Source: Deltaproteobacteria bacterium
GTDB taxonomy: Bacteria; Desulfobacterota; Binatia; UTPRO1
Reading direction: 5' to 3'
Length of the DNA stretch: 45,243 nucleotides
Assembly: GCA_029262315.1 (NCBI GenBank)
Contig: JAJCZP010000282.1
Span: forward strand, 1-45,243
The notes beneath the pieces are model-generated. The model saw nothing but the letters and a program-made list of their open reading frames with translations, was not told the DNA's origin and ran no database searches. Positions 6,983-22,283 of this stretch are shown here, in pieces; the first letter of the stretch is position 1, and the number at the start of each line of letters is the position of its first letter. Made by a program: the position numbers and the translations under genes.

Positions 6983-7831
6983 GTGAAGCCATTCTGTGTG
7001 AGCCCACACTCGAGACAACGTCTGGCCTTTGCCGTGGCCGTGCTGCTGGCCCTCGCTTGCGTCGAATCGTCCGCCGCGGCCGAGCGTGCCAACGCCGAGC
7101 CCAGCACCCAGGCGACGGAACCACTCGAGGATCCGCTGTTCGACGAGTTCGACGAGGAGTTCGAGGGGCCGACGGGCTTCCCCGACCCACTCGAACCACT
7201 GAACCGCGGCACCCTCCGTTTCAACCAGCGGGTCGACGCCTTGCTGATCGAGCCCGTCGCACGGTTGTACCGCTTCGTGGTTCCCAATCAGGTGCGCCAT
7301 GGCTTCCGACGGATCCTGGCCAACCTGAACTCCCCCGCGATCCTGGTCAACGACCTCCTGCAACGCGAATGGCGCGATGGCGGCGTCACCGCGACCCGTT
7401 TCATGCTCAACAGTACCCTCGGCGTTGGGGGCATCTTCGATCCAGCCCGCGACTTCGGCTACGAACCGCACAGCTCAGACTTCGGACAGACGATGGCCCT
7501 CGAGGGCGTGGCGAGCGGCCCGTTCCTCATGCTCCCCGTGGCAGGTCCGACGACCATGCGAGACGGCCTCGGCTACCTCGTCGACATCATGTTCCAACCG
7601 ACGACGTACCTCCTCGGGGGTGCCGACCAGATTCTGCATTCGGCTGTTCGCGGCGGCAGCGCGGGCTTGGCAACGCGAGACGCGAATGCGGAGGCGATCC
7701 GGGCGCTCGAGGAATCCTCCATCGACTACTATGCGGCGCTCCGGAGCGCCTACTACCAACACCGCACCGCGGAGATCTGGAAACGTCGCGGCCATCGCCG
7801 AGAGGCGGTCGAGCTTGCGGCGCCCGAGTGA
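6983..7831 (+). CDS. mlaA: MlaA (VacJ) family outer-membrane lipid-asymmetry protein
   Basis: A 282-residue exported protein. It has the family hallmark DPLEPLNR (68-75) followed by FNQRVD, then LNSPAILVNDLLQ, RFMLNSTLGVGGIFDPA and GPFLMLPVAGPTTMRDGLG, all typical of MlaA. MlaA removes misplaced phospholipids from the outer leaflet of the outer membrane and hands them to MlaC. The GTG at 6983 has a good AAGGAG site; longer readings to 6839 add a non-conserved stretch before the signal peptide. The signal (FAVAVLLALACVESSAAA) has a possible lipobox-like A-L-A-C, though the usual family lipobox is not clear. It ends 4 bp before the convergent MlaC-type gene. Confidence 0.92.
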   Translation: MKPFCVSPHSRQRLAFAVAVLLALACVESSAAAERANAEPSTQATEPLEDPLFDEFDEEFEGPTGFPDPLEPLNRGTLRFNQRVDALLIEPVARLYRFVVPNQVRHGFRRILANLNSPAILVNDLLQREWRDGGVTATRFMLNSTLGVGGIFDPARDFGYEPHSSDFGQTMALEGVASGPFLMLPVAGPTTMRDGLGYLVDIMFQPTTYLLGGADQILHSAVRGGSAGLATRDANAEAIRALEESSIDYYAALRSAYYQHRTAEIWKRRGHRREAVELAAPE

Positions 7832-7835
7832 CCGG

Positions 7836-8486
7836 TCAGCGCTTGGCGTCGGCGGCCGCGAGATCCGCGATCTTCTCGTCGAGCAACACCAGCAGCCGAT
7901 CGAACCCATCGCGCTTGAGCACCGAGGAGTACTCGGTCCGACGGAGCGCCAACTCACTCACCGTACCGTTCAGGTAGACGTCGATGATGCGCCAGGCATC
8001 CTGCACGCGCCGGAGTCGATACGTCAATTCGACGTCCTCGTCGCCCGGATTGAGGAGACGAGTACGGACCAGTGTGGTCTCGTTGGCCCCCGGGTCCTGG
8101 CCGAGCGTCTCGAACGATTGCCCGCCATCACCAATAAAGCGACCGGCGTAGTTGGCAACCGTGAAGCGTTCGAATGTCGCCACCCAACGAGCCTGGTCCT
8201 CCGATTCGAGCGTTCTCCACGCTCGGCCGACACACTTCTCGGCCATGAAGGGAAAATCGAACGTGGACTCCATGGCCGGCTTTAAGCGCGTGAAGCGCTC
8301 GCCGTATTCAACAGTCGCCGAGTCCTTCAGGGCGCCGAGCAACGCGGCATGCAGCTTCTCGACGACCGCCGGTGGTGTCACGGCGTCCCCCGGTGGTGTC
8401 ACAGCGTCCGGCGCAGCGCCTCCCGCGGACGCGAGAACGAGCAGCAGCACCTGGAACAGTCCCACAACCACACTCGGCCGCGTCAC
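7836..8486 (-). CDS. MlaC/Ttg2D family periplasmic lipid-binding protein (HpnM-like)
   Basis: A 216-residue exported protein with a signal peptide (VVVGLFQVLLLVLASAGGAA) and the MlaC fold signature: FDFPFMAEKCVGRAWRTL, then ARWVATFERFTVANYAGRF and a conserved C-terminal part WRIIDVYLNGTVSELALRR. MlaC carries phospholipid across the periplasm; the hopanoid-cluster homologue is HpnM. The GTG at 8484-8486 is preceded by GGGGAGT; the longer frame to 8870 runs antisense into the next gene. It is divergent from an HpnN-like MMPL permease (90 bp apart) and convergent with mlaA. Just after the signal is a duplicated DAVTPP unit. Whether its cargo is phospholipid or hopanoid cannot be told. Confidence 0.88.
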   Translation of the reverse strand: MTRPSVVVGLFQVLLLVLASAGGAAPDAVTPPGDAVTPPAVVEKLHAALLGALKDSATVEYGERFTRLKPAMESTFDFPFMAEKCVGRAWRTLESEDQARWVATFERFTVANYAGRFIGDGGQSFETLGQDPGANETTLVRTRLLNPGDEDVELTYRLRRVQDAWRIIDVYLNGTVSELALRRTEYSSVLKRDGFDRLLVLLDEKIADLAAADAKR

Positions 8487-8576
8487 GGCATACTCCCCAG
8501 CTCGACCGTCATCGGGCCCAGACTGTACCACCGACGGCAGCCGAGCGCACGTCGCCCGCGAACATGGGGGAGGCCG

Positions 8577-11228
8577 GTGAGCGCGCGCCTGACGGCGCTC
8601 CTCGTCGCCTGGCTCGCGCTCGTACAACGGCGGGCGCGCCTCGTCATCGGGATCGACCTCGCGGTGACGCTCGTGCTCGCACTCGTGGCCGCGCTCTTTC
8701 TCGGTGTCAACATGGACAACAAGGCGGTGATCGCCAATCACCTGCCGTTCGTCAAAGACACGGCCGCGTTCGAGGAGCATTTCCCTTCCCTCGAGTACGC
8801 CATCCTCATCGTCGTCGACGCCGAGACACCCGAGCTCGCTCGCGGCGCCACCACGTCGCTTCGGGCGCACCTGCGCAAACGGACCGATCTCTTCTCCGCG
8901 GTCTACTCACCAGCCAGCGGGCCGTTCTTCGAACGCCACGGACTCCTGTACCGCTCGGTCGACGAGCTCGACGATCTCGTCGACCAGCTTGCGCGTATGC
9001 AACCGATCATCGCCGACCTTTCGCGTGACGGCAGCATCGCGAACCTCGCACGCGTGATCCGTCTCGGCCTCGAACAGCAACGCGACGCGCCGATCGACCC
9101 CGAACAATGGGCGGCAGTACTCGACCGGGTCGGTGAAGCCACGGTCCGTGTGTACGACGAGTATCCGGTCTCGGTCTCGTGGGAGGATCTGATGCTTGCC
9201 GGCTCGGCCGTCGATCCCGGGACGCGCCAGCTGATCATCGCCGAACCAGTACTGACGTTCGACACCCTGCTCCCGGCGGATCGCGCCATCGCGGCCATCC
9301 GCGCGGCCACCCACGAGTTGGCGCTACTCCCAGACCACGGCGTGCGGGTCCGCATCACCGGCAACCCGGCGCTCAACCACGAGGAGATGATTGGCCTCGC
9401 CTGGGACATCGGCGTCGCCGGGGTGTTCTCTTTCGCACTGGTGACCGGCATCCTCTTCCTCGCCTTTCGCTCGCTTCGACTCGTCTCGTCGGCCGCGTTG
9501 ACGTTGCTGGTCGGCCTCATCTGGACGGCGGGACTCGCGACCTTCACGGTCGGCCATCTCAACATCGTGTCGATCTCGTTCGGCGTACTGTTCATCGGCC
9601 TCGGCGTCGATTTCGCGATCCACCTCGGCATGCACTACACGGAGGAAGTTCAACAGGGGGCCGATTCACCCGAGGCCTTCCGACGATCGATCGAGAGTAT
9701 CGGCACCGCGCTGCTCTTGTGCGCACTCACGACCGCCCTCGGTTTCTTCTCGTTCATCCCGACCGACTACTGGGGCGTGGCCGAACTCGGACTGATCGCG
9801 GGCTCGGGAATGTTCATCATCGTCCTACAGACGCTGACGTTGTTCCCCGCGCTCGTCAACGTCCGCCTCGGAGACGACCCCGCGCGCTGGGTCCATGCTC
9901 CCGTCTCGGTCGCGTTGACACCGCCGGCCATCGTCCAGCGCCATCCGGGAGCAGTGGTCGCGTGTGCCGTCGCCCTCGCGGCGGTAGGCCTATGGCTCGC
10001 GCCCGGCGCGCGGGTGGATGCGAACGTCATCGTCATGCGGGACGGCCGGACGGAATCGGTGCAGGCGTTCAACGACCTGCTCACGAACAGTCGCACCTCC
10101 CCGTGGCACGCGAACGTCCTTACCGACGACATCGCGGCGGCCGACGCGCTCGCCGCGCGGGTGCGGATGCTCCCCGAGGTCTCCCACACGCTCACGATCT
10201 CGACCTACGTCCCCGACGACCAAGACGAGAAGCTGGAGATCCTCGCGGACGCGGCCATGCTCTTCGACGCACCCCCCGCACCGACACGACCCACCGAACC
10301 CCCACCCGTCGACGAGCAGATCGCGGCGCTCCGCCAGCTCCGTACGGTGCTCGAGAGTCCGTGGCTGGAAGAGAACACGGGACCCCTGGCGGCCAGTGCG
10401 CGCAAGCTCCGCGCCGAGCTCGATCGATTTGTCTCGACCCTCGATCCCGCCAACGATCCCACGACCGCGCTCCGCAACCTCGATCGCGTATTGCTCGGGA
10501 ACTTCCCCGCCCAAGTCGAGCGCCTCGAGCGCGCGCTCGCCCCGGACCCGATCACTCAGGACGGACTGCCACCGGAGGTACGGTCGCGGATGCTCTCCGC
10601 CGATGGGCATGCGCGCGTCCAGATCTTCCCGAGCGCGAACCTGCGCGACACCAACGCCTTTACGACCTTCGTCGATGCGGTGCGGAGCGTGAACCCGCAC
10701 GCGATCGGCGTGGCAGTCAACCTCGTCGAATTCGCACGTGCCACTGAACGCTCCCTGCGAAAAGCCGTCGCCATCGCGCTGCTCGCCATCACGCTCCTCC
10801 TCCTCATCCTCTGGCGGCGTATCGACGACATGCTGCTCGCCCTGGCGCCCTTGCTCCTGGCAGGCCTCCTCACTGTTAGCGCCATGGTCGTCCTCGATCT
10901 GCCGTTCAACTTCGCCAACGTCACGGCGCTGCCACTCCTGCTGGGCATCGGGATCGACAGCGGGATCCACCTGGTGCACCAATCGCGCACTACGCGCGGC
11001 GGTGATGACAACCTCCTCGTATCGACCACGGCACGCGCCGTGTTCTTCAGCGCCGCCACCACTATCGCCAGCTTCGGGAGTCTTGGGTTCTCCAACCACA
11101 AGGGTATCGCCAGCCTGGGGATCCTGCTCGTCATCGGCACCCTGATGATGCTAGCAGCGAATCTGGTCGTGCTGCCGGCGCTGCTGGCGCTGCGCGACAA
11201 ATTCCACGCACGACACCGAAGCGCCTGA
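8577..11228 (+). CDS. MMPL/RND-family lipid transporter (HpnN-like)
   Basis: An 883-residue inner-membrane permease with the duplicated RND layout: one N-terminal helix (about 18-42), a large periplasmic loop, a five-helix bundle (about 275-430), then a second helix-loop-bundle copy ending near 880. Each bundle holds the MMPL signature G-x-G-x-D-x-x-I-H (GLGVDFAIHLGMHY near 342; GIGIDSGIHLVHQS near 790), whose Asp serves in proton relay. Length and layout match hopanoid transporter HpnN. The GTG at 8577 follows GGGGGAGG closely. The neighbouring MlaC/HpnM-like and MlaA proteins suggest a shared route moving a lipid to the outer membrane. No hopanoid biosynthesis gene is in the window. Confidence 0.88.
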   Translation: MSARLTALLVAWLALVQRRARLVIGIDLAVTLVLALVAALFLGVNMDNKAVIANHLPFVKDTAAFEEHFPSLEYAILIVVDAETPELARGATTSLRAHLRKRTDLFSAVYSPASGPFFERHGLLYRSVDELDDLVDQLARMQPIIADLSRDGSIANLARVIRLGLEQQRDAPIDPEQWAAVLDRVGEATVRVYDEYPVSVSWEDLMLAGSAVDPGTRQLIIAEPVLTFDTLLPADRAIAAIRAATHELALLPDHGVRVRITGNPALNHEEMIGLAWDIGVAGVFSFALVTGILFLAFRSLRLVSSAALTLLVGLIWTAGLATFTVGHLNIVSISFGVLFIGLGVDFAIHLGMHYTEEVQQGADSPEAFRRSIESIGTALLLCALTTALGFFSFIPTDYWGVAELGLIAGSGMFIIVLQTLTLFPALVNVRLGDDPARWVHAPVSVALTPPAIVQRHPGAVVACAVALAAVGLWLAPGARVDANVIVMRDGRTESVQAFNDLLTNSRTSPWHANVLTDDIAAADALAARVRMLPEVSHTLTISTYVPDDQDEKLEILADAAMLFDAPPAPTRPTEPPPVDEQIAALRQLRTVLESPWLEENTGPLAASARKLRAELDRFVSTLDPANDPTTALRNLDRVLLGNFPAQVERLERALAPDPITQDGLPPEVRSRMLSADGHARVQIFPSANLRDTNAFTTFVDAVRSVNPHAIGVAVNLVEFARATERSLRKAVAIALLAITLLLLILWRRIDDMLLALAPLLLAGLLTVSAMVVLDLPFNFANVTALPLLLGIGIDSGIHLVHQSRTTRGGDDNLLVSTTARAVFFSAATTIASFGSLGFSNHKGIASLGILLVIGTLMMLAANLVVLPALLALRDKFHARHRSA

Positions 11229-11331: not shown

Positions 11332-14300
11332 GTGAGCTGGCTGCGCCGGAGAGTTGGAATCGAGCCGGGCGAGGGGCGTCTGTTCGCCTGCTCGACGACC
11401 ATTCTCTTCCTTGCCGGCTGGGGCTCGGTCCAACTCACCAACGTCTCGGAGACACTCTTCCTCAAGCGGGTCGGGGTCGAGTATCTCCCGCTCGTCTTCC
11501 TCGGAAACTCTGCCCTCCTGGTCGCCACGACATGGATGATGGGTCGCATCGCCGCGCGCACCAAGCAGGTCCCGCTCCTCTCGTGGACGCTGCTCGGACT
11601 GGCCGGCGCCCTCCTCCTGCTCTGGTTCGCGGTCGTCGGCAATCCGCACGACTGGATCTTCACCGCCCTGCTGATGGCCGCGAAGCAGGCCGACTCGCTC
11701 GCGATGCTGGTGTTCTGGATCGCGCTCGGGGGTCTGCTGCACGGACGGCAGGCGAAGCGCCTGTACGCGCCCATCTGGGCCGGCGCAACGCTCGGTACGA
11801 TCCTCGGCAGCTTCGCCTCGGGTCCGCTGGGGCGCCTGCTCGGCATCACGACCCTCGTCCCAGTCGCGGCGGCGAGCCTCCTCGCGGCGGCGATCTTCAC
11901 GGTCCCGCTACGGCGGCTGGCCGCCGGCGCTCGATTGACGCGACGAGCCACCGTGACACGCGAGGCGCCGCCACCAAAAGCCTCGGTCCTCTGGCGCGAG
12001 AGCTTGCTGTTCCGAGTGCTGGTCTCCAGCGCGATCTTCAGCGGCGTGCTGGGTCCGATGCTCTACTTCCAATTTTCGTATGTCGCCGATCTCGCCACCC
12101 AGGGCTCGAACGGCGAGCAACGCCTGCTCGACCTCTACGGACAATTCCGTGGCTGGATCAACTTCGCGGTGCTCGTGCTGCAACTGGTAGGGACGTCCGC
12201 ACTCTACCGCCGGATCGGGCTGCCCCTCGCCTCCGCCTTGTCGCCGCTGGCCTACCTCCTCGGGTTCACCGGCCTGAGCGTGCGCTTGAGCCTGCCGGCC
12301 GGCGTCGCGGCGGTCGCCGCCACGAACCTGCAAGACCACGCCGTCTACGATCCCGCGCAGAAGGTGCTCCTCACCCTCTTCACCGAGCGGGTCCGTGGCT
12401 ACATCACGGGCTTGATCGACGGCCCCGTCAAGCGAGCCGGCGGGGTCGTCGGCAACCTGGTGGTTCTCGGTACCCTCGCGATCGGAACGCCCATCTGGGT
12501 TGGATGGACCGCGCTGCCGGTCGCCGCCGCCTGGGTCGCGGTCGCGCTTGCGCTCTGGCGGGCGTATCCGACGATCCTGCTCGAAGTCGTCGGCACACGC
12601 CGGCACGACGAGGATGAACTCCCCCTGGGGGACCTCATCGACCCGGGAACGCTCCGCGTGCTCGAGACCTCGCTCAGCGAGAGTGATCTCGAAAGCTGCC
12701 GCGCCGCATGCGGCCTGCTGCTCGAGGCGCCGCCCAACCGTGTCGCCGGCGTGCTCCTGCGTGCCCTGGCACGCGCACCCGACGACAATCTGCCGCTGAT
12801 CGTCCGAGCGCTCGACCGGCTCGTCCGGGACCACCGCGACAACCTCGTCGTACCGGCCGACGGCGTGGCTGGCGCTATCGCGGCGTACGGCGACGCCGCC
12901 GGCCTTACGCCACTCGACCGCGCCCGTCTCGTGCGAGCATACCTCATCCTCGCGGGGCCGCTCGCCGGCGACGACGTTCTGATCGAGATGGCCGAGGACC
13001 CGGAGGGCGCGGTTCGGTTGGCCGCCACCGCCGCGCTCCGTGTTCGGCGCGGCGAGGACGTGGACCCTCTACTCGCGGCGGCGGTCACAAGTACCGATGC
13101 CGCCGAGCGCGAGATCGCACGCGACGAACTCCGCGCACTCCTTCTGAACGCGGAGGTCGGGCACACACCCGATCAGCGATGGCGCGACCGCCTGACGCTC
13201 CTCACCGCGTCGTTGACGCGCCCCGAGGACCGCGCCAGCGCTGCCAGCGCCGTCGCCGATCTGGCCGAGCGCCACGGCTCGGTGCTCGCCGAGCATGCCG
13301 AGTCCCTCGTACTCCATGGCCAGGACGCCGACACCCGCGTCCGTGAGGCCGTGCTACGATTCGTCGGACACACCCGTCTGACGGATCAAGCGGGCTGGCT
13401 CGTCGAGCGCATTACGGCGCGTGATCGTGAGGAAGCGACAGCGGCGCGCGAGGCACTGCGCGCCATCGGTCCGCTCGCCATGGACCTCCTGCTCGATGCC
13501 CTCCACTTCGGGAAACGGAGCACTCGACTGGCCTTGCTGCCGATCCTCCGCGAAATGGCCGTCGACGGGCGCAGCCTCCGCGGCTTGGTCGACGCGGAGC
13601 TCGACTGCATGGAGCGAACGGCGATGCACCTGCACGCGTTGGCGGCTGGTGGCGTCTCGGATCTGGTCCTCCAACGCCTGCAAGAACGAGTCACCGAGTC
13701 GGCCCATACGTCGCTCCTCCTCCTCGCGACACTCCTGGACGAGGATCGCATTGCCCGGCTCTGCCGGCTGCTTGGGCGAACGTCACGCGACGGCCGCGAG
13801 CGCGCCGTACTACTCGAGGCGCTCGAGGCGCTTCTCCCACCCGACCACCGGGCACGCGTCATGCCCATCCTCGAGGAGCAGGATCCGGTTCGCGCGGCGG
13901 CCGCGGCCCGTACACTCGGCCACGAGATCCCCTCATTCGAGCAAGCGCTGCGGGAGATTCTCAGCGGCGATGACGCATTGACCCGCGACTTCCTCCGGGC
14001 GACCCTCGATCCGGCAACGCGCACGCGCTTCGGCCTCGACGCACTCGAGTTCGGAGATCCACCGACCGGCGCGCCCTATGCCGAGGCGCCTGGGAATGCT
14101 ACGGCGGTCAGAGCCGGTGGGCAGCCCGCGAACGGGCACCCGATACCGGCGCTGACCGATGCCGTCGACACCCAAGAGCAGCGGGACGAACAGGAGCAGC
14201 AGGTGCTGAGCAAAGTGGAGGTCGTCCTACACCTCCGGAGCCTCGATATCTTCAGCCGCTTGACGACGCGCCAGCTCACCGATCTGGCAACCGTCGTCAC

Positions 14301-14622
14301 CGAGGAGACCCATCCCGCCGGCACGACGATCGTACGCGAGGGCGCGTTCGAGGACTGCATGTATCTGATCGTTGCCGGGCAAGTGCGCATCTCGAAGGAT
14401 GACCGCACTCTCGCGGAACTCGGCCCGCGCGACTTCTTCGGTGAGATGGCGGTCTTCGACGGCGAGACTCGCTCGGCCACCGGCACGGCGGCCAGCCCAC
14501 TGCGCCTCTTGCGCCTCGAGCGTCACGACCTCTTCCTCGTCATGGAAGAGCAACCCGGTATCGCCATCACGATCTGCCAGACTCTCACCCGCCGCCTGCG
14601 CACCCTGAACCAGCGCTTGTAA
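11332..14622 (+). CDS. Nucleotide-transporter-like membrane protein fused to HEAT repeats and a cNMP-binding domain
   Basis: A 1096-residue protein. Residues 1 to about 420 hold roughly 12 hydrophobic helices in the MFS/ADP-ATP-translocase style (LTNVSETLFLKRVGVEYLPLVFLGNS, QDHAVYDPAQKVLLTL). Residues about 430-900 are Leu/Ala/Arg-rich helical pairs (EGAVRLAATAALRVRRGED; RVREAVLRFVGH) typical of HEAT repeats. The last 130 residues are a cyclic-nucleotide-binding domain with the cassette FFGEMAVFDGETRSAT. Known relatives of this layout are annotated as Npt1/Npt2-type carriers. The cytoplasmic sensor could gate transport, but ligand and substrate are unknown. The start is a GTG with only a weak AGGA site. 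It converges with a second carrier of the same superfamily. Confidence 0.85.
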   Translation: MSWLRRRVGIEPGEGRLFACSTTILFLAGWGSVQLTNVSETLFLKRVGVEYLPLVFLGNSALLVATTWMMGRIAARTKQVPLLSWTLLGLAGALLLLWFAVVGNPHDWIFTALLMAAKQADSLAMLVFWIALGGLLHGRQAKRLYAPIWAGATLGTILGSFASGPLGRLLGITTLVPVAAASLLAAAIFTVPLRRLAAGARLTRRATVTREAPPPKASVLWRESLLFRVLVSSAIFSGVLGPMLYFQFSYVADLATQGSNGEQRLLDLYGQFRGWINFAVLVLQLVGTSALYRRIGLPLASALSPLAYLLGFTGLSVRLSLPAGVAAVAATNLQDHAVYDPAQKVLLTLFTERVRGYITGLIDGPVKRAGGVVGNLVVLGTLAIGTPIWVGWTALPVAAAWVAVALALWRAYPTILLEVVGTRRHDEDELPLGDLIDPGTLRVLETSLSESDLESCRAACGLLLEAPPNRVAGVLLRALARAPDDNLPLIVRALDRLVRDHRDNLVVPADGVAGAIAAYGDAAGLTPLDRARLVRAYLILAGPLAGDDVLIEMAEDPEGAVRLAATAALRVRRGEDVDPLLAAAVTSTDAAEREIARDELRALLLNAEVGHTPDQRWRDRLTLLTASLTRPEDRASAASAVADLAERHGSVLAEHAESLVLHGQDADTRVREAVLRFVGHTRLTDQAGWLVERITARDREEATAAREALRAIGPLAMDLLLDALHFGKRSTRLALLPILREMAVDGRSLRGLVDAELDCMERTAMHLHALAAGGVSDLVLQRLQERVTESAHTSLLLLATLLDEDRIARLCRLLGRTSRDGRERAVLLEALEALLPPDHRARVMPILEEQDPVRAAAAARTLGHEIPSFEQALREILSGDDALTRDFLRATLDPATRTRFGLDALEFGDPPTGAPYAEAPGNATAVRAGGQPANGHPIPALTDAVDTQEQRDEQEQQVLSKVEVVLHLRSLDIFSRLTTRQLTDLATVVTEETHPAGTTIVREGAFEDCMYLIVAGQVRISKDDRTLAELGPRDFFGEMAVFDGETRSATGTAASPLRLLRLERHDLFLVMEEQPGIAITICQTLTRRLRTLNQRL

Positions 14623-14699
14623 CCTCGCGGCCGCCTGGGGCCGACCCGCTCCAGCCGCGACGCAACACCACCCGCCGGACATCGGGCCGCACGCGCAGC

Positions 14700-14732
14700 C
14701 GTCCTGACCTCGCTTCGTGATCGCTCAGGACG
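14700..14732. terminator. Candidate bidirectional hairpin between convergent carrier genes
   Basis: CGTCCTGA (14700-14707) pairs with TCAGGACG (14725-14732) across a 17-nt loop. The right arm overlaps the stop codon of the minus-strand carrier. There is no T run, so intrinsic termination is uncertain. The position between two convergent genes is the main support. Confidence 0.35.
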
Positions 14733-16113
14733 CCGGCGTGGAAGCGACACGCCCGTACTCTCTGACGACCAGCACGGCAACACCGAGCCAGATGACAACC
14801 AGCGCGACGTTGAACGCGAAGAAACTGGCCGTGCGAAGCGCCAGCACCTGCACCCCCACCATGACCGTCAGGGCCGCGAGCGCATCGCCCACTCTGACGA
14901 AAAAGGTGTCGATCACCGGCTTGCCCTTGTATTTCAGCTCGGCTGAGAGCGGCAGCCAGAGCACGCTTCGCGCGGTATTGTTCAGCGAATAGTCGGTCGC
15001 ATTCTCGGCGATCTTCATGAGGCGAACGACTGCGATGATCGGCACCAGGGCCATTGCCGTATACGACGCCAGGGCGACCACCGGCAGCACCAGAAAGAGC
15101 ACTCCGAAACCGCCGTACTTGAGGAGGCGTGACGCCACGAGCGACTGCAATAGCAACGCAACGGTGTTCACCCAGAAATAGAAACCGCCGTAGAACGCGG
15201 TCGTGCCGTCACGCGTGAACTCGAGTATCTGCCGATCGCCGGTCACCCCCTGCGCGAGCGCATCACTCTCGAGCACCTCCTGCACCACGCGAAACAACAG
15301 ATTCTCGCCGTTCGTATTGACCCAATTGATCAGCAGGGTCGTCAGCGCGACCAGCAACAGGTACCGGTGCGCGAACACGAGACGAAAGCCGCCTCCGGCC
15401 GGGGGTTCGGGGGCGTTGGCCGCACTCTCGTCGACACTCGCCGCTGGGACTTTGGACGTCGTCGTAGAGACGGGCATGCGGCGATCGGCGATCTGGGTCA
15501 ACACGACTGATGCGCCCAGCGGCACGATCGCCGCAAGAAGAAGGTACTCGGTCGGCAACAGGCCGGAATCGATGAGGGTCTGAGTAATCCACGCACCGAA
15601 GGCGGCTCCCGCCGTGGCGCCGATGGCGACCAGCGGAATGAGCCGCGCGCCCTGCTCCTGCGTGTAGAGATCGGCGGCAAACGCCCAGAACTGCGCGACG
15701 ACGAACACCCCGAACATGCCGACCCACAGGTAGAAGACGACGCCTGTCCCGGGCAGGCCCTGCAGAAAGAACTCCGGCTGCAACACCCAGAAGATCACGA
15801 GATTGGACATGCAGAACAGCGTCGCCCGCTTGATGACTATCGCCCGGGGAAAGCGGTCGACCAAGCGCGCGTACTGCGCGACAACGACGATCAGGAGGAG
15901 GCTCTGTGCGAGACTCGAGTAGGCCTTCACCTCCATCTTGCTGAGCGATGGCACCCCTGAGATCGCGATCCAGCCCTCGCGTAGTGGCTTGACGAGGTAG
16001 TAGGCGCAGAGAATCAGAAAGACGTTCGCGAACATCAGGAGCGCGGTCGACCCTTCACCGGGTCGCACGTCCGTGAACACGCGCAGCAATCGCTCAGTCC
16101 GAGTAAGTTGCAT
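14725..16113 (-). CDS. Npt1/Npt2 (ADP/ATP translocase) family nucleotide transporter-like protein
   Basis: A 462-residue inner-membrane protein with about 11-12 hydrophobic helices. The N-terminal YYLVKPLREGWIA, the FWAFAADLYTQEQGARLIPLVAIGATAGAAFG segment and RLMKIAENATDYSLNNTARSVLWLPLS are typical of the bacterial Npt1/Npt2 family, best known from energy parasites and plastids, where members exchange ATP and ADP or import nucleotides. Free-living bacteria have relatives of unproven substrate. A GAAGGG site precedes the ATG at 16111-16113. It begins 47 bp after the stop of the kinase-like gene on the same strand, so it probably ends a three-gene unit with the lipoprotein hydrolase and kinase-like protein. 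Confidence 0.87.
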   Translation of the reverse strand: MQLTRTERLLRVFTDVRPGEGSTALLMFANVFLILCAYYLVKPLREGWIAISGVPSLSKMEVKAYSSLAQSLLLIVVVAQYARLVDRFPRAIVIKRATLFCMSNLVIFWVLQPEFFLQGLPGTGVVFYLWVGMFGVFVVAQFWAFAADLYTQEQGARLIPLVAIGATAGAAFGAWITQTLIDSGLLPTEYLLLAAIVPLGASVVLTQIADRRMPVSTTTSKVPAASVDESAANAPEPPAGGGFRLVFAHRYLLLVALTTLLINWVNTNGENLLFRVVQEVLESDALAQGVTGDRQILEFTRDGTTAFYGGFYFWVNTVALLLQSLVASRLLKYGGFGVLFLVLPVVALASYTAMALVPIIAVVRLMKIAENATDYSLNNTARSVLWLPLSAELKYKGKPVIDTFFVRVGDALAALTVMVGVQVLALRTASFFAFNVALVVIWLGVAVLVVREYGRVASTPAS

Positions 16114-16160
16114 GATAACCCTTCATCGGAGACATCCACGCCTCCGACCGGGAGCGAGCC

Positions 16161-17261
16161 TCAGTACACTGCCATCGTGCCCGCGTCTACGGCAGCGAGG
16201 AGTGCCGCGAGCCGCGCGGAGACACCGCGCCGCTCGCGCTGTGTCAGACCGAGCTGGACGCGTCCGGGACGGACACGCGCACCACGGGCCGGATCGAGGT
16301 TGGTGCCCGGCGTCCGGTAGCGCAGAATACCGTCGGCATCCGCAACCAAATCGGCGACGACTCCGAGCGCCTCAATGTCGGCGGCCGTGACCTGGCGCAA
16401 CCGTGCAATCGCCTCGCGGCGCACCGCTGGAACCCAAAGCCGATGCCAATTGGATACGAAGTAATTGTAGATCACCGGATCGAACGCGATACCGTTGTCG
16501 ACCGAAAATACCCGTCGATTCGCCGCGTCGTTCGACACCAGAAAATTGCCGGCGCGGCCGTCCCGATGGTCGATCAGGTATGTCAGAAGATTGAAATTCC
16601 CGAGATGAAACGCGTACGCGGGATCGGCGAGAAAACGCTCGCGCTCGTAGAGCCGCTTCGGCACCGTCACGTGTTCCAGCCACACCATCACCCAGCCGAG
16701 CACGCACCGCACCCCTGGAATGGTGGGTTCGGCGTCCGGATCGAGTAGCCGATAGCGCTCGAGGGGCGAGCAACGCAGTGCCGAGGTCGGCACGACGTAG
16801 TCATCCGGGTCGAGGAACCACTTCTGGACCTCGTACGCAGCAAGCTCACGGCGGGGAGAATTGTTCCACCCATCAGCGTCTGCCGCTGGCACCGGCTTCC
16901 ACTTGAGGGCGAACGCATCGCCACGCGCAGCGATGTAGACTTTCTCCTTGGCGGCGCCCGTCACGCCGCGCCCGATGGACTCGTGAGAACGAACCTCCAA
17001 CGCCTCGTGCATGAGCACGTGCTCGAGATCAGCGGGCGGCAACGGCCACGCGCGTCCTGGCCCGGGACGCCTCGCCTCCCTATAGGCGGTGGGCACACCG
17101 GGGCCACCGGGGGGAACCGCCATCGCACACCCGACGGTCAGCCCGAGCGCCATGGCACAGAGCCCGAGCCACCCCCCACGGAGCGATTCGCGGGCACGGT
17201 CAGATCGGGACCGCCCCGAAACACCCCCGCTCACGCCACGGCCACGATCGGCGGCGGTCAC
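16161..17261 (-). CDS. Lipoprotein with PI3/4K-HipA-FAM20-like kinase motifs
   Basis: A 366-residue protein from GTG 17259-17261, preceded by AGGAG; two later GTGs (17234, 17222) are possible. The signal ends in lipobox T-V-G-C (Cys45), so the domain should sit outside the cytoplasm. Kinase-like features: a Lys in FALKWK (Lys120), a Glu in RRELAAYEVQKWF (Glu139), DHRDGRAGNFLV (catalytic-type Asp231/Asp234 and Asn239) and VDNGIAF (metal-binding-type Asp255 followed by NG). This spacing matches the atypical kinases of the PI3/4K, HipA and FAM20 groups. Its substrate is unknown, and a pseudokinase cannot be excluded. It starts 7 bp after the hydrolase gene and is followed by a nucleotide carrier. 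Confidence 0.68.
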   Translation of the reverse strand: MTAADRGRGVSGGVSGRSRSDRARESLRGGWLGLCAMALGLTVGCAMAVPPGGPGVPTAYREARRPGPGRAWPLPPADLEHVLMHEALEVRSHESIGRGVTGAAKEKVYIAARGDAFALKWKPVPAADADGWNNSPRRELAAYEVQKWFLDPDDYVVPTSALRCSPLERYRLLDPDAEPTIPGVRCVLGWVMVWLEHVTVPKRLYERERFLADPAYAFHLGNFNLLTYLIDHRDGRAGNFLVSNDAANRRVFSVDNGIAFDPVIYNYFVSNWHRLWVPAVRREAIARLRQVTAADIEALGVVADLVADADGILRYRTPGTNLDPARGARVRPGRVQLGLTQRERRGVSARLAALLAAVDAGTMAVY

Positions 17262-17268
17262 CGTGCTC

Positions 17269-19176
17269 CTATTCCCGAACCGCTGGGGTTCGGCGCGCGT
17301 CAGGTGGAACCATCCCGTCCGTCGCCCCACACGTGGTCTGTTGCTCGTGCAAAGTGAGAATACGCCGCATCTCCTCGATCGTGTGCGGGTTGGACTGTGT
17401 CGAGTGCCCGGAGCGGACGATGAGCTCGGACTCCGCCTCGTCGATGTGGGCACTCATGTACTTCACGACACCATCGTCCGCATCCTCGAGCGGCGTGTCG
17501 TCCTTGACCGGGATGATCGAATTGGCGGTCACGCTGGGTGAGACGGGAATAGAGGCCAAAGCCTGGATGAAGTCGTTGCTCGGAGACATGTTGTCGATGC
17601 TGGTGGCACCACGCGTGAAGCGGAAATGCGCCGCGTCACGCGGATTCAAGCCGCCTAGCTCGGCACCAAACGTGAGCAGCGACGATGGCATCTTGATCAG
17701 GCGGGAAGCCAATCGGCGCGCGAGAGCCGAACTCGCGAGAAAGCTCCCTCGCTGCGGGGTCGAGATGAAAACCGTCCGGGCGACAAACGGCAACGGCTCG
17801 ACGAACATCGCGTCCCGCACCAACGCGCGAGTCTCATCCGAGAAGGGCGCTTCCTCGATCGGACGATCGCTGAGCGTGTCCCAGAGCTTGGAGCCCGAAT
17901 CGATGGCGGTCATCTTGGTGAGCAGACCGCCCTGGCTGTGGCCGACGACGACCATCTGTCGCAGGCAGGCGCCCTCCCCGTCCGGATCGAAGGCATCAAC
18001 CGTCTCGACCAAGGCGCGCCGGAGCAGCATCGCCGAATAGGGAATCGGACTTCCCGAGTTGTAGCGGAAGAACCAGAATTCGTAGCGACGATCGATGCCC
18101 GGAATGCTCGCAAGATCGTTCACCATATCCGCCCAGCGGGCGGGGCTCGAGTGCGTGCCATGCACGAAAACAATCGGGATCCGACCGTGCCGATGCGGCT
18201 CCATCCCAAACAGAACGCTCGGCGACTCGGCGCCAACAAGGTCGCCGAGAAATCCCCGCAGCTCTCGCTTCCAGTACGCGGACTCGATGAGGGCCGACGC
18301 GAGCGCCACCGAGGGCTCCGCCTCCAGCGGCAACGTGCGATCGTCGACTTCGATCGTCGGCTCTTCCGTGGTGGCGTACAGCTCCAGCGTGCCATGAAGC
18401 TGCGAGGTCCGGAGCTGAGCGCGTGGGTCGTCGATGCGGAGCAGCAGTGTCGTTGCCACCCGGACCTCTGGCGGGACGAAGTCGACGAGTCGATGCTCCG
18501 CATCGCGCGGCTCCGTCGCCGCTGCCAGAGGCGCACCGATGCCGGCACGCCGATAGCGATTGCGCAGACCGCGAACGGCATAGCCCGAGGATGCCCGGAG
18601 ATCGATGAGTCGCAGATACCCCCAATCGAGGCTCGCTGGATCGAACTCGACCGCAAGCGAGCCGAACGGGAGTGCGAAGTTACCCGACGCCGGCACCACG
18701 GCACCGCCGTCGGCGTCAGCGAAGGCGTGCGCAACCGCCCGGTTGTACATGTCGCACGCGACCCGGATCCGCGGATCGATGGGACTCAGCTCCGGCTCCG
18801 CGCCCGCAGGAAACAGAAATGCGTAGGCATAGACAGCGGCCGCAAGATAGTGCCCCCGCGAGCCTACGTCCGCGGCGTGCTGTACGGAAAGCTCCGCGAG
18901 GGCAAAGAGCTGATCGTAGCCAGCACCACCCTGTATCAACGTCGCGTGCAGTTCCTCGATCACACTCTCCGGGTCCGCCTGCGCCTGGGCGAGTAGACCG
19001 TAGCGTCGAAGGACGATCTCGGTGTCGATACTGAGCGCGTCGCTGTCGAGAACGCTACGCGTGTTTTCCCGATGCGCCATCTGAGGACTCAACTTCGTCA
19101 CACCCACGGGGGCCCGACAGGCGCCGAGCGTCAGCGTGCACGCAATGGCAACCGCGAGCCACCGCGCCGCCCCCAT
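17269..19176 (-). CDS. Alpha/beta-hydrolase lipoprotein
   Basis: A 635-residue protein from ATG 19174-19176; longer readings to 19347 precede the obvious signal. The signal ends in L-G-A-C (Cys20). Residues about 60-330 form an unrecognised all-helical plus beta region, after which a lipase-type domain begins: IPIVFVHGTHSSPARW (oxyanion loop, about 333-348) and the nucleophile elbow GHSQGG with Ser414. FISTPQRGSFLASS is typical of esterases acting on large or lipid-like substrates. The acid and His of the triad probably lie near DDGVVKY and the SGHS/HT motifs close to the C-terminus. It leads a unit with the kinase-like lipoprotein. The substrate is unknown. Confidence 0.82.
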   Translation of the reverse strand: MGAARWLAVAIACTLTLGACRAPVGVTKLSPQMAHRENTRSVLDSDALSIDTEIVLRRYGLLAQAQADPESVIEELHATLIQGGAGYDQLFALAELSVQHAADVGSRGHYLAAAVYAYAFLFPAGAEPELSPIDPRIRVACDMYNRAVAHAFADADGGAVVPASGNFALPFGSLAVEFDPASLDWGYLRLIDLRASSGYAVRGLRNRYRRAGIGAPLAAATEPRDAEHRLVDFVPPEVRVATTLLLRIDDPRAQLRTSQLHGTLELYATTEEPTIEVDDRTLPLEAEPSVALASALIESAYWKRELRGFLGDLVGAESPSVLFGMEPHRHGRIPIVFVHGTHSSPARWADMVNDLASIPGIDRRYEFWFFRYNSGSPIPYSAMLLRRALVETVDAFDPDGEGACLRQMVVVGHSQGGLLTKMTAIDSGSKLWDTLSDRPIEEAPFSDETRALVRDAMFVEPLPFVARTVFISTPQRGSFLASSALARRLASRLIKMPSSLLTFGAELGGLNPRDAAHFRFTRGATSIDNMSPSNDFIQALASIPVSPSVTANSIIPVKDDTPLEDADDGVVKYMSAHIDEAESELIVRSGHSTQSNPHTIEEMRRILTLHEQQTTCGATDGMVPPDARRTPAVRE

Positions 19177-19260
19177 CCCCCGCCGCCCCTCCGGCGGCGA
19201 ACACCTGGCGGTCAGCATCGGCAAGAGCGCGAACGGGACTCTTCCTTGGTCACCTTGCAT

Positions 19261-19269
19261 CCCCCCCCC
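19261..19269. repeat. Run of nine C upstream of the hydrolase start
   Basis: A C9 homopolymer (G9 on the coding strand) lies about 85 bp upstream of the chosen hydrolase start and directly before an in-frame ATG at 19258-19260. Such tracts are slippage-prone. The region from 19177 to 19398 otherwise holds no gene or clear promoter. Confidence 0.7.
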
Positions 19270-19398
19270 GAACTCACACGCCGGCTGGCCTGCACCAGGT
19301 GCGCACGGTACTCGGCGCATACCGCACAACCGCCTGCAAACCAACACTTCGAGGACGCGTGATCGGCATGAGCGACCGAATCGCGGGTGACGAATCCG

Positions 19399-21570
19399 TC
19401 AATCGACCCAGTGCAGCACGTCACGAATCACCGACCAACGCGGCATCGCGGGCTCGGCATCGCGGCCGAGGATCCAGTGGGCATGGAGGTCGGCAACGGT
19501 ACCGTCCTTCTGCTTGAGCTCGATCCAGTGATCGAGGAACTCGGCGAAGGCCTCGGTGCCGGCGCTACCGCCGATCGGATAGACGAGCGGGACGGCAATC
19601 TCCACGTCCCGCGGTTTCACGACCTTGTAGTGCGGATAGCGCAGCGTCCACACCGATCCCGCCTCGGCACTGCACGCCAGCGCATCGAGATCGAGGTCGG
19701 GATTGTCGAAAAAGACGCCGTGCGATGCCAATTCCACGACCTCCAGCTCGGGAAAGCGGAGGCGCACCGCCTCCGCGAAGTACCCGTTGGCAAGCGCACC
19801 GATACGTAGGCGCCGACGCCCTACGACCGCACCGCTCTCGAACTCGTGACGGCGATGATCGCGGACGACCAAGGCCGCGTGCACGTCGAGATACGAACGT
19901 GACAACAGCATGTGCCCGGACCGGGCGCTCGTACCCGCCACGCCGGACATGGCCAGATCGAAATGATCGGCCGCAAGCTGCTCCTGCAAGGTTCGCGACG
20001 TAAACGGAACGAACTCCAGCGTGAGTTCGAGTTCACGGGCGAGACGATGGGCCATGTCGACGTCGAAGCCGACCAGGGCACCCGCATCGTTGAAGTACAC
20101 GAAGGGCAGCGAGTCTGGCTCGAAACCCACCCGCAACACCCCACGAGCACGAGCCCGCTCGAAACGCGATTGCCCCGGCGCAAGCGACACTGGGTTCGGC
20201 GCCGCAACCTCGAGCACGACGGTCGCGACCGACCCCTCGACCAACTGCATGCCCGCGAGGACCCGATCCTTGTCGTACTGGCCCCGCAGCACCTCCTTGA
20301 GCCCCGCGCGCGTGCCCACGACGGCTCCCGCGACGAGCAGCGCCCAGACCCCGAAGAAAACGACGAGAGCGCGCAAGCGAGGCCGAAAACGCGAGCGAAT
20401 GACGGCCACACTCAAGAGCGTCAGCGCCAGCAGATGCATGGTGCCGGCGAGATCCCCCATTCGCATAGTGATCACACCGGAGAGCAGGAAGAGCGGAAAC
20501 GTATCCTCGGGCAGATGCATCAAGTCGAGCAGGAAAGGAATCCCGATGGTCGGACTCCCGAACATGACGAGTAGTCCCGCCCCGAGGAAGGTCGGGTACT
20601 GCCCGGCAGCCAGCACCGCGCCGCTGAACCATGCCGCAAACGGCACGAAAATCAGGGCCAGGAGCTTGCCGACGTTCGGAAAGGGATACGTGAGGGGGAT
20701 GACCACCTCAGGCGCCGACTCCACTTCCTCGCCCTCGATCTCGTAGTCGCGCAGGAGCTGTGCGGTACGATCGATCAGCAGCGGGAGCACGACGAACGTC
20801 TTCCCCACGGCGAAGGCCGTCACCATCGCATCCTTGCCGGCCGCGAGCACGTCGCGATAGCGAAACGGGGTGCAGGCGCTGACAAGGGCCGGCAGCACCC
20901 AGAAAGTGAGGATGAGGGCCGCAAGCGAATACGTAATCAGATAGCCTTGCAAGCTCCCCAACTCGCGCACGCTCATCGTACCCGCCGCATTGGCGGCGAT
21001 GGCGAACACCCCCACGGGAGTGAGGCGAACGAAGAACCCGTTCACCCGCATCAGCACTTCGGCGAGAATGTCGAGTTGCGCGATCAGCCCCTCCTTGCCC
21101 GCCACCCCGATGAGCCCGATCCCAAGACAGATACAGAACAACACGACGGCCGGAACGAGATTGTTGGCAAGCGAGTAGAACGGATTCGACGGCACATACA
21201 GCGCGAGCATGTCGACCGGTGGTCGCGCCTCCACGAAGGTCGCGTTGAAGAACGATGCCGTCTCGACGCCCGGCCACGACCACGGCATCACCGCGATGGT
21301 CACGAGCCCGACCGCCCAGAGGAGCAGGACGACGAGCCCGGCCGAACGCGCCAGACTCCACGCCCCGGCAACCGACAAGCGGCCGATATTCGCCACCAGC
21401 GCAACGACCACGTAGGGCAACACGGCCATCTGCAAGAGCGCGATGAATACGTCCCCTACGATCCCGAGCGGTGCGCAGTATTCGCCGAAGAACACGCCGC
21501 ACCCAACGCCGGCGATAGCCCCGATCAGGATCCACGAACTCAGACCGAGCCGATGACGTCGCGCCGTCAC
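19399..21570 (-). CDS. Dicarboxylate/amino-acid:cation symporter fused to a family-3 solute-binding domain
   Basis: A 723-residue protein from GTG 21568-21570, with GGGAGG six bases upstream. Residues 1 to about 400 are a DAACS-family symporter: NPFYSLANNLVPAVVLF, VKLTP-type FVRLTPVGVFAIAANAAGT, and a C-terminal hairpin GSPTIGIPFLLDLMHLPEDTF. A further helix (ALVVFFGVWALLVAGAVVGT, about 410-430) leads out of the membrane to a binding domain at 468-723 with the SBP_bac_3 start RGVLRVGFEPDSLPFVYFND and GFDVDMAHRLA. The usual symporter tip motif (TNVxGD-like) is replaced by RMGDLAGTMH. A tethered receptor feeding a secondary carrier is the simple reading. The substrate is probably an amino or dicarboxylic acid. 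Confidence 0.85.
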   Translation of the reverse strand: MTARRHRLGLSSWILIGAIAGVGCGVFFGEYCAPLGIVGDVFIALLQMAVLPYVVVALVANIGRLSVAGAWSLARSAGLVVLLLWAVGLVTIAVMPWSWPGVETASFFNATFVEARPPVDMLALYVPSNPFYSLANNLVPAVVLFCICLGIGLIGVAGKEGLIAQLDILAEVLMRVNGFFVRLTPVGVFAIAANAAGTMSVRELGSLQGYLITYSLAALILTFWVLPALVSACTPFRYRDVLAAGKDAMVTAFAVGKTFVVLPLLIDRTAQLLRDYEIEGEEVESAPEVVIPLTYPFPNVGKLLALIFVPFAAWFSGAVLAAGQYPTFLGAGLLVMFGSPTIGIPFLLDLMHLPEDTFPLFLLSGVITMRMGDLAGTMHLLALTLLSVAVIRSRFRPRLRALVVFFGVWALLVAGAVVGTRAGLKEVLRGQYDKDRVLAGMQLVEGSVATVVLEVAAPNPVSLAPGQSRFERARARGVLRVGFEPDSLPFVYFNDAGALVGFDVDMAHRLARELELTLEFVPFTSRTLQEQLAADHFDLAMSGVAGTSARSGHMLLSRSYLDVHAALVVRDHRRHEFESGAVVGRRRLRIGALANGYFAEAVRLRFPELEVVELASHGVFFDNPDLDLDALACSAEAGSVWTLRYPHYKVVKPRDVEIAVPLVYPIGGSAGTEAFAEFLDHWIELKQKDGTVADLHAHWILGRDAEPAMPRWSVIRDVLHWVD

Positions 21571-21698
21571 TGATCGCCTCCCATCCCCTCCTCCTCTACC
21601 ATTCCAGGCGAGCGATCTCGACAACGTGGGCGCTGTTCGCTTGCGGACACCGCCCCCGGCCTGGTATCGACGCGCGATCTCAATTTGTGGAGGGTCCA

Positions 21699-22283
21699 TT
21701 GAACATCAACAGAACATTCGGAACCACAGTCGCTGCGGCATGCATGCTCTCGCTCACCGCCTGCAGCACGGCGCGCATGGGCAAGGGGCCGGTCGTAAGC
21801 GGCACGGTCGGCGAGAACGTCGTCCAGGCCACGGCGAAGGTGGAAGCCATCGATTACGACACACGCGAGGTCACGCTGCGTGGATCGGACGGCGAGAAGT
21901 TCAGCTTCGTAGCGGGCGAGGCCGTCAAGAATCTTGCACAGGTCGACGTCGGCGACACCGTTGCCGCGACGTACTATGAGTCGGTAGCTTTCGAGGTCCA
22001 CAAGCCGGGGGAAGTGACCCCGGGCGTCTCCATTGCCGAAGGTACGGGCACGGCCGAATTGGGCAGCAAGCCGGGAGCCCTCGACGCGCAAAGCATCACC
22101 GTCACGAGCACGATCGTAGCCATCGACCGTGATACCCCGACGGTCACGCTCGAAGCACCCGACGGCGAGCGCCGCACGATCAAAGTGCGGCATCCCGAGC
22201 ACCTGAAGAACGTCAAGGCAGGCGATCAGGTCGAGATTACCTTCACCCGAGCGCTGGCGATCGCGGTGGAGGAACTTCCGTAG
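21699..22283 (+). CDS. Small hypothetical lipoprotein with two beta-rich repeats
   Basis: A 194-residue protein read from TTG 21699, chosen because GGAGGG lies 4 bases before it; a GTG at 21687 would bury that site. The signal ends in L-T-A-C (Cys22). The mature part contains two related units: KVEAIDYDTREVTLRGSDGE followed by KNLAQVDVGDTVAATYYESVAFEV, and TIVAIDRDTPTVTLEAPDGE followed by KNVKAGDQVEITFTRALAIAV. Each looks like a small beta barrel, and the fold may be OB-like. I know no function. It is divergent from the symporter fusion (128 bp between the starts) and ends 9 bp from the convergent operon end. Confidence 0.75.
   Translation: MNINRTFGTTVAAACMLSLTACSTARMGKGPVVSGTVGENVVQATAKVEAIDYDTREVTLRGSDGEKFSFVAGEAVKNLAQVDVGDTVAATYYESVAFEVHKPGEVTPGVSIAEGTGTAELGSKPGALDAQSITVTSTIVAIDRDTPTVTLEAPDGERRTIKVRHPEHLKNVKAGDQVEITFTRALAIAVEELP

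Follow-up and report, generated by a model that had tools for sequence, protein, structure and literature searches.

A predicted exported kinase with a Fam20/PI4KII-type fold and its conserved linkage to NTT-type carriers in bacterial genomes

Gene organization of the locus

The window (the whole stretch of DNA analyzed, 45,243 nucleotides of contig JAJCZP010000282.1 from a deltaproteobacterial genome) contains three successive genes on the minus strand, the last of which (14725-16113) is convergent with a plus-strand gene (11332-14622). In the order in which the minus strand is read, the features are as follows.

17269..19176, minus strand: alpha/beta-hydrolase lipoprotein; 635 aa; start ATG 19176, stop 17269; lipobox LTLGA↓C
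16161..17261, minus strand: kinase-like lipoprotein, predicted extracytoplasmic; 366 aa; start GTG 17261; lipobox LTVG↓C, Cys45
14725..16113, minus strand: relative of NTT-type (TLC) nucleotide carriers, the short carrier; 462 aa; start ATG 16113
11332..14622, plus strand: second NTT-type carrier, with HEAT repeats and a C-terminal cNMP-binding domain; 1096 aa

The three minus-strand genes were present as given in a preliminary description of this DNA, with 7 bp between hydrolase and kinase and 47 bp between kinase and downstream carrier. The lipobox is canonical in the hydrolase and acceptable in the kinase. An AGGAG ribosome-binding-like site preceding the kinase GTG at 17261 overlaps the hydrolase stop, and the 7-bp spacing of these two genes may reflect co-transcription. 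A scan of 14500-19700 detected no promoter of sigma-70-like type, and the number of terminator-like sites in this interval did not exceed chance expectation. The convergent gene 11332-14622 had been overlooked as a second NTT-type carrier.

The hydrolase, assigned to Abhydrolase_6 by Pfam (E=4e-7), had been proposed as a functional partner of the kinase. Relatives occur in 47 of the 148 genomes of the class, often in several copies, and none of the matches listed from these genomes adjoins a kinase gene, the window's own excepted. Because the family is widespread, multi-copy and not found beside the kinase elsewhere, the hydrolase was rejected as a component of the system and is probably an incidental operon neighbor.

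Other genes of the window were recorded. Just upstream of 11332-14622 lie lipid transport genes, encoding an MlaA lipoprotein (7034-7831, plus strand) and the hopanoid transporter HpnN (8349-11228, plus strand), together with an MlaC-like open reading frame (7836-8870, minus strand). The product of 19399-21699 (minus strand) combines a sodium:dicarboxylate symporter (SDF, E=4.6e-42) with a family 3 extracellular solute-binding domain (E=1.6e-21) and is, judged by these domains, a secondary transporter that carries its own binding protein. Finally, 40995-43796 (minus strand) encodes a 933-aa protein that matched no Pfam family.

The NTT-type carriers

The short carrier was recognized by the Pfam model of TLC ATP/ADP transporters at E=8e-5, its 22.1 bits lying narrowly over the curated cut-off of 21. 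Compared with all PDB chains, a profile of this carrier hit the solved ADP,ATP carriers of the plastid/parasite type (E=1e-16 and 1e-14) and nothing else. On these sequence comparisons the short carrier belongs to the NTT (TLC) superfamily. The product of 11332-14622 matched the NTT profile (E=3.6e-10), the cNMP-binding domain (E=4.5e-18) and, under that model's own cut-off, HEAT_2 (E=0.0055). Its predicted domains fit the NTT-HEAT-cNBD architecture, fusions of which were described by Major et al. (2017), along with NTT genes, in free-living bacteria, their role being left open (PMC5381601). According to the NTT profile, these two genes are the only ones of NTT type in the 5.9-Mb genome.

Four charged residues of AtNTT1 (K155, E245, E385 and K527) are required for ATP/ADP exchange (PMC3306366, PMC10654386); K155R abolishes ADP binding and leaves weak ATP binding, and E245K blocks exchange (PMC3306366). 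The corresponding residues of the short carrier are R45, G132, E270 and K398. Nearly all carriers examined have Arg at K155 and Gly or Ser at E245, while E385 is conserved as E or D and the ATP-site lysine K527 is retained in every one. The short carrier also falls far under the cut-off of NCBIfam TIGR00769, which covers NTP/NDP exchangers (19.4 vs 387.2 bits). Lacking E245 and with K155 changed to Arg, it is therefore not, as far as sequence can tell, a canonical exchanger of the Npt1/AtNTT1 type. Its earlier naming as an Npt1/Npt2-type carrier thus holds for the NTT homology and, by sequence, fails for the canonical exchanger type. With NTT/Tlc/Npt1 carriers it shares sequence homology and the positions E385 and K527, and it differs from them in the K155 to Arg and E245 to Gly replacements and in its occurrence in free-living hosts.

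Since the carriers are NTT relatives with altered K155 and E245 positions, another anion is possible as their substrate. They would then move a phosphorylated product or some other organic anion, and periplasmic ATP would arise by leakage or another route. The missed exchanger cut-off agrees with such a function, as does the fact that tests have so far reached only a small fraction of NTT diversity (PMC5381601). Retention of K527 in all carriers examined, PDB matches confined to ADP,ATP carriers and the presence of two kinds of secreted ATP-dependent enzyme in the neighborhood (see below) argue against it, and we consider a substrate other than ATP unlikely, though deserving of weight.

The kinase-like protein

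The kinase catalytic set is complete in the 16161-17261 product: a glycine loop at about 97-103, K120, E139, an HRD-like D234, N239, and D255 in a DNG motif. Relatives were drawn from genomes of the same class and from GTDB contigs; their hosts belong to Myxococcota/"Deltaproteobacteria", Gemmatimonadota (and Palauibacter) and Gammaproteobacteria, including Steroidobacteraceae. Plasmids and phages were also searched and yielded none. Across 32 divergent relatives K120, D234, N239 and D255 do not vary and position 139 is always E or D, which confirms the atypical-kinase motifs reported earlier and extends them to the whole family.

Sequence searches placed the protein poorly. Pfam assigned the window kinase to no family, single-sequence searches found nothing, and the PDB, searched with both the single sequence and a profile, returned nothing useful. 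The PI3_PI4_kinase model weakly matched 22 of the 32 relatives (best E=2.5e-4) and did not match the window protein; the Fam20C model gave no significant match, its best value being E=0.08, in 2 of 32 family members. The AlphaFold model was confident (pLDDT about 90 or more across most of the core) and has a Fam20/PI4KII-type kinase fold, as expected from the preliminary description. In VIA-align, hydra Fam20 scored highest (Z=16.6), followed by Fam20C with Mn/ADP and PI4KII-beta (both 15.7), so that Fam20 and type II PI4-kinase are tied within one Z unit; CtkA (11.5), CotH (11.2) and the PI3K group (about 10) scored much lower. PI4KII-alpha was the first match in Foldseek (E=3.5e-7), and all matches listed by the two programs were kinases. 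By modeled fold and catalytic residues, the protein is a member of the protein-kinase-like superfamily. Since its predicted structure is nearest to Fam20 and PI4KII and Pfam matches are absent or weak, it is best placed in an undescribed family of its own with a Fam20/PI4KII-type fold.

CotH spore-coat kinases are bacterial, Fam20C-related atypical kinases (PMC12189002) and have a fold related to that of the window kinase; according to a review, they lack a DFG-type metal motif (PMC12189002). By contrast, Asp255 of the DNG motif is invariant in the window kinase family. We know of no NTT partner for CotH. Type II phosphatidylinositol 4-kinases are cytosolic lipid kinases, whereas the window kinase is predicted to be exported. 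Fam20C and Fam20B, the secretory-pathway kinases of the animal Golgi, offer the closest parallel: they too act outside the cytoplasm, with ATP having to be brought across a membrane. The window kinase differs from them in being bacterial, a lipoprotein or Sec-exported protein of a separate sequence family, and genetically linked to an NTT-type carrier.

Export was assessed from the N-termini. A signal-peptide-like N-terminus or lipobox was found in 33 of 35 relatives by N-terminal scan; when called genes were judged by a single common rule, 15 of the 18 kinase genes qualified, vs 28% of 259 other genes at the same loci. Moreover, three genomes of the window's family encode the kinase domain as part of a fusion, preceded by a secreted Beta-lactamase2 domain of penicillin-binding type with SxxK, SxN and KSG/KTG motifs. 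A location outside the cytoplasm is accordingly predicted, and the extracytoplasmic placement proposed earlier gains from the enrichment over control genes.

Kinase-like folds with other chemistry exist, SelO and SidJ among them, and the exported protein could be a pseudokinase or a different transferase (an AMPylase or glutamylase), its NTT link serving another use of nucleotides. DNG in place of DFG and the failure of every Pfam model to score the window protein are in keeping with this; the catalytic set that is complete in all 32 divergent members, closest folds that belong to active Fam20 and PI4KII enzymes, and a secreted metallophosphatase encoded beside several family members make it improbable.

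Linkage of kinase and carrier genes

At 24 of the 35 distinct loci, the kinase gene has an NTT-type gene no more than about 3 kb away. Where at least 5 kb was available on both sides, the count was 18 of 21, the three well-sequenced exceptions being L021, L022 and L031. Linked loci span Myxococcota/"Deltaproteobacteria", Gemmatimonadota and Gammaproteobacteria, and each of the two deep branches of the kinase tree shows the link. The conserved adjacency anticipated in the preliminary description was thus found across phyla. Gene order varies. Kinase and carrier are on the same strand in the window and at L017; the kinase is convergent with an NTT-HEAT-cNBD gene at L014-L016 and L020, divergent from a short carrier at L024, L025 and L028, and convergent with the carrier in Steroidobacteraceae (L045-L051). 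In Gemmatimonadota it follows an NTT-HEAT-type gene and a two-component pair (L037, likewise L040), and at L078 two genes separate it from the NTT gene. Orthologs of 11332-14622 adjoin the kinase or the carrier in relatives. Beside the kinase-NTT pair at L045-L051, a conserved trio was seen upstream of the kinase, encoding proteins of about 1125 aa (beginning FRIFLSSPGDVAEERL), 568 aa and 169 aa.

Kinase-bearing genomes hold 1-4 NTT genes (NTT profile), so that chance alone would put an NTT gene within 10 kb at no more than about 2% of loci. Although the loci are not independent, chance linkage across several lineages is not credible. Within the class, an NTT relative was found in 9/9 kinase-bearing genomes vs 39/148 genomes overall. 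An ordinary neighborhood without functional link, with NTTs that work in the salvage or uptake of nucleotides, fits the NTT genes of unknown role in free-living bacteria (PMC5381601) and the seemingly incidental hydrolase next door, but is very improbable given a proximity that is conserved through differing gene orders and in both halves of the kinase tree, in genomes where NTT genes are rare.

Secreted dikinase and cell-wall-type enzymes

In many deltaproteobacterial clusters the NTT carriers also adjoin a gene for a secreted dikinase, in which a PEP-utilizers phospho-His domain is followed by a PPDK_N ATP domain. Its catalytic motifs are intact and conserved (the invariant His in SHxQLL, an RSDTNVEDL stretch and the QxRP end), and signal peptides were detected in 6/7 by a scan of called genes. 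It resembles glucan water dikinase and PEP synthase in these two domains, and their order (His, then ATP domain) we take to be that of glucan water dikinase; it differs in its signal peptides and in an N-terminal half without a Pfam family. The same clusters encode secreted penicillin-binding-type enzymes with intact catalytic motifs and a secreted family (p520/p575) with an invariant SHGCT motif like that of L,D-transpeptidases. Pfam YkuD matched 4/15 members of the latter (best E=0.027), and AlphaFold modeled this family poorly (mean pLDDT 59).

NTT-dikinase clusters exist both with and without the kinase. At L060, L061, L062, L063, L073 and L080 an NTT carrier (short or HEAT-fused) occurs with a secreted serine enzyme and a secreted dikinase and no kinase; these carriers may be tied more constantly to the dikinase than to the kinase. 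The window's genome has a second locus (contig C297, L056:6103-13932) encoding a secreted dikinase, a penicillin-binding-type enzyme and two secreted proteins that have the SHGC motif, with no NTT or kinase gene nearby.

Proposed mechanism and significance

The common view is that the bacterial periplasm contains no ATP. Export signals, the kinase fold with its catalytic residues, NTT homology and a conserved neighborhood emerge from sequence and prediction, and two unrelated types of secreted ATP-dependent enzyme neighbor the NTT carriers; ATP export with return of ADP or AMP is for the latter reason the simplest account. We therefore propose, with a probability of roughly 0.6, that the NTT carriers export ATP and return ADP/AMP, fueling an exported, envelope-anchored kinase of the Fam20/PI4KII type and a companion dikinase. 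Both the substrate and the direction of transport are inferred, and the characterized parasite and plastid NTTs function as importers (PMC5381601), in contrast to the export suggested here.

In short, the kinase-like protein would be an exported phosphotransferase anchored in the envelope, and adjoining NTT-type carriers would move ATP from cytoplasm to periplasm in exchange for spent nucleotide: ADP from the kinase and AMP from the secreted dikinase. In relatives the module would comprise two NTT carriers, the kinase, the PPDK-type dikinase, and the secreted penicillin-binding-type and L,D-transpeptidase-like proteins. The HEAT and cNMP domains of the one carrier presumably face the cytoplasm. 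The cell-wall-type enzymes suggest an acceptor in the envelope, and the likely task would be phosphorylation of one of its components, for example a glycan, a sugar linked to peptidoglycan or a protein of the envelope. Supply of ATP by a neighboring translocase, as put forward in the preliminary description, is strengthened by the conserved adjacency and, independently, by the secreted ATP-using dikinase of the same clusters; it is weakened by the loss of one of the four AtNTT1 exchange residues and the Lys-to-Arg change at another, by the missed exchanger cut-off, by the three well-sequenced kinase loci that lack an NTT neighbor, and by the NTT-dikinase clusters from which the kinase is absent.

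No described system linking bacterial NTT carriers to secreted kinases or dikinases was found in the open-access literature, in agreement with the earlier statement that none of this form was known. The role of NTTs in free-living bacteria is a stated open question (PMC5381601). Through a conserved module in which these carriers are paired with secreted kinases and dikinases, both that role and periplasmic ATP become testable. The broader proposition, to which we give even odds, is that free-living bacteria run a periplasmic ATP economy, in which NTT carriers export ATP, retrieve ADP/AMP and power secreted Fam20-like kinases and dikinases that phosphorylate the envelope. If true, it would give the secretory-pathway kinases of animals a bacterial parallel and assign a function to orphan NTT and NTT-HEAT-cNBD carriers, and the module would make the bacterial envelope a site of regulated or structural phosphorylation.
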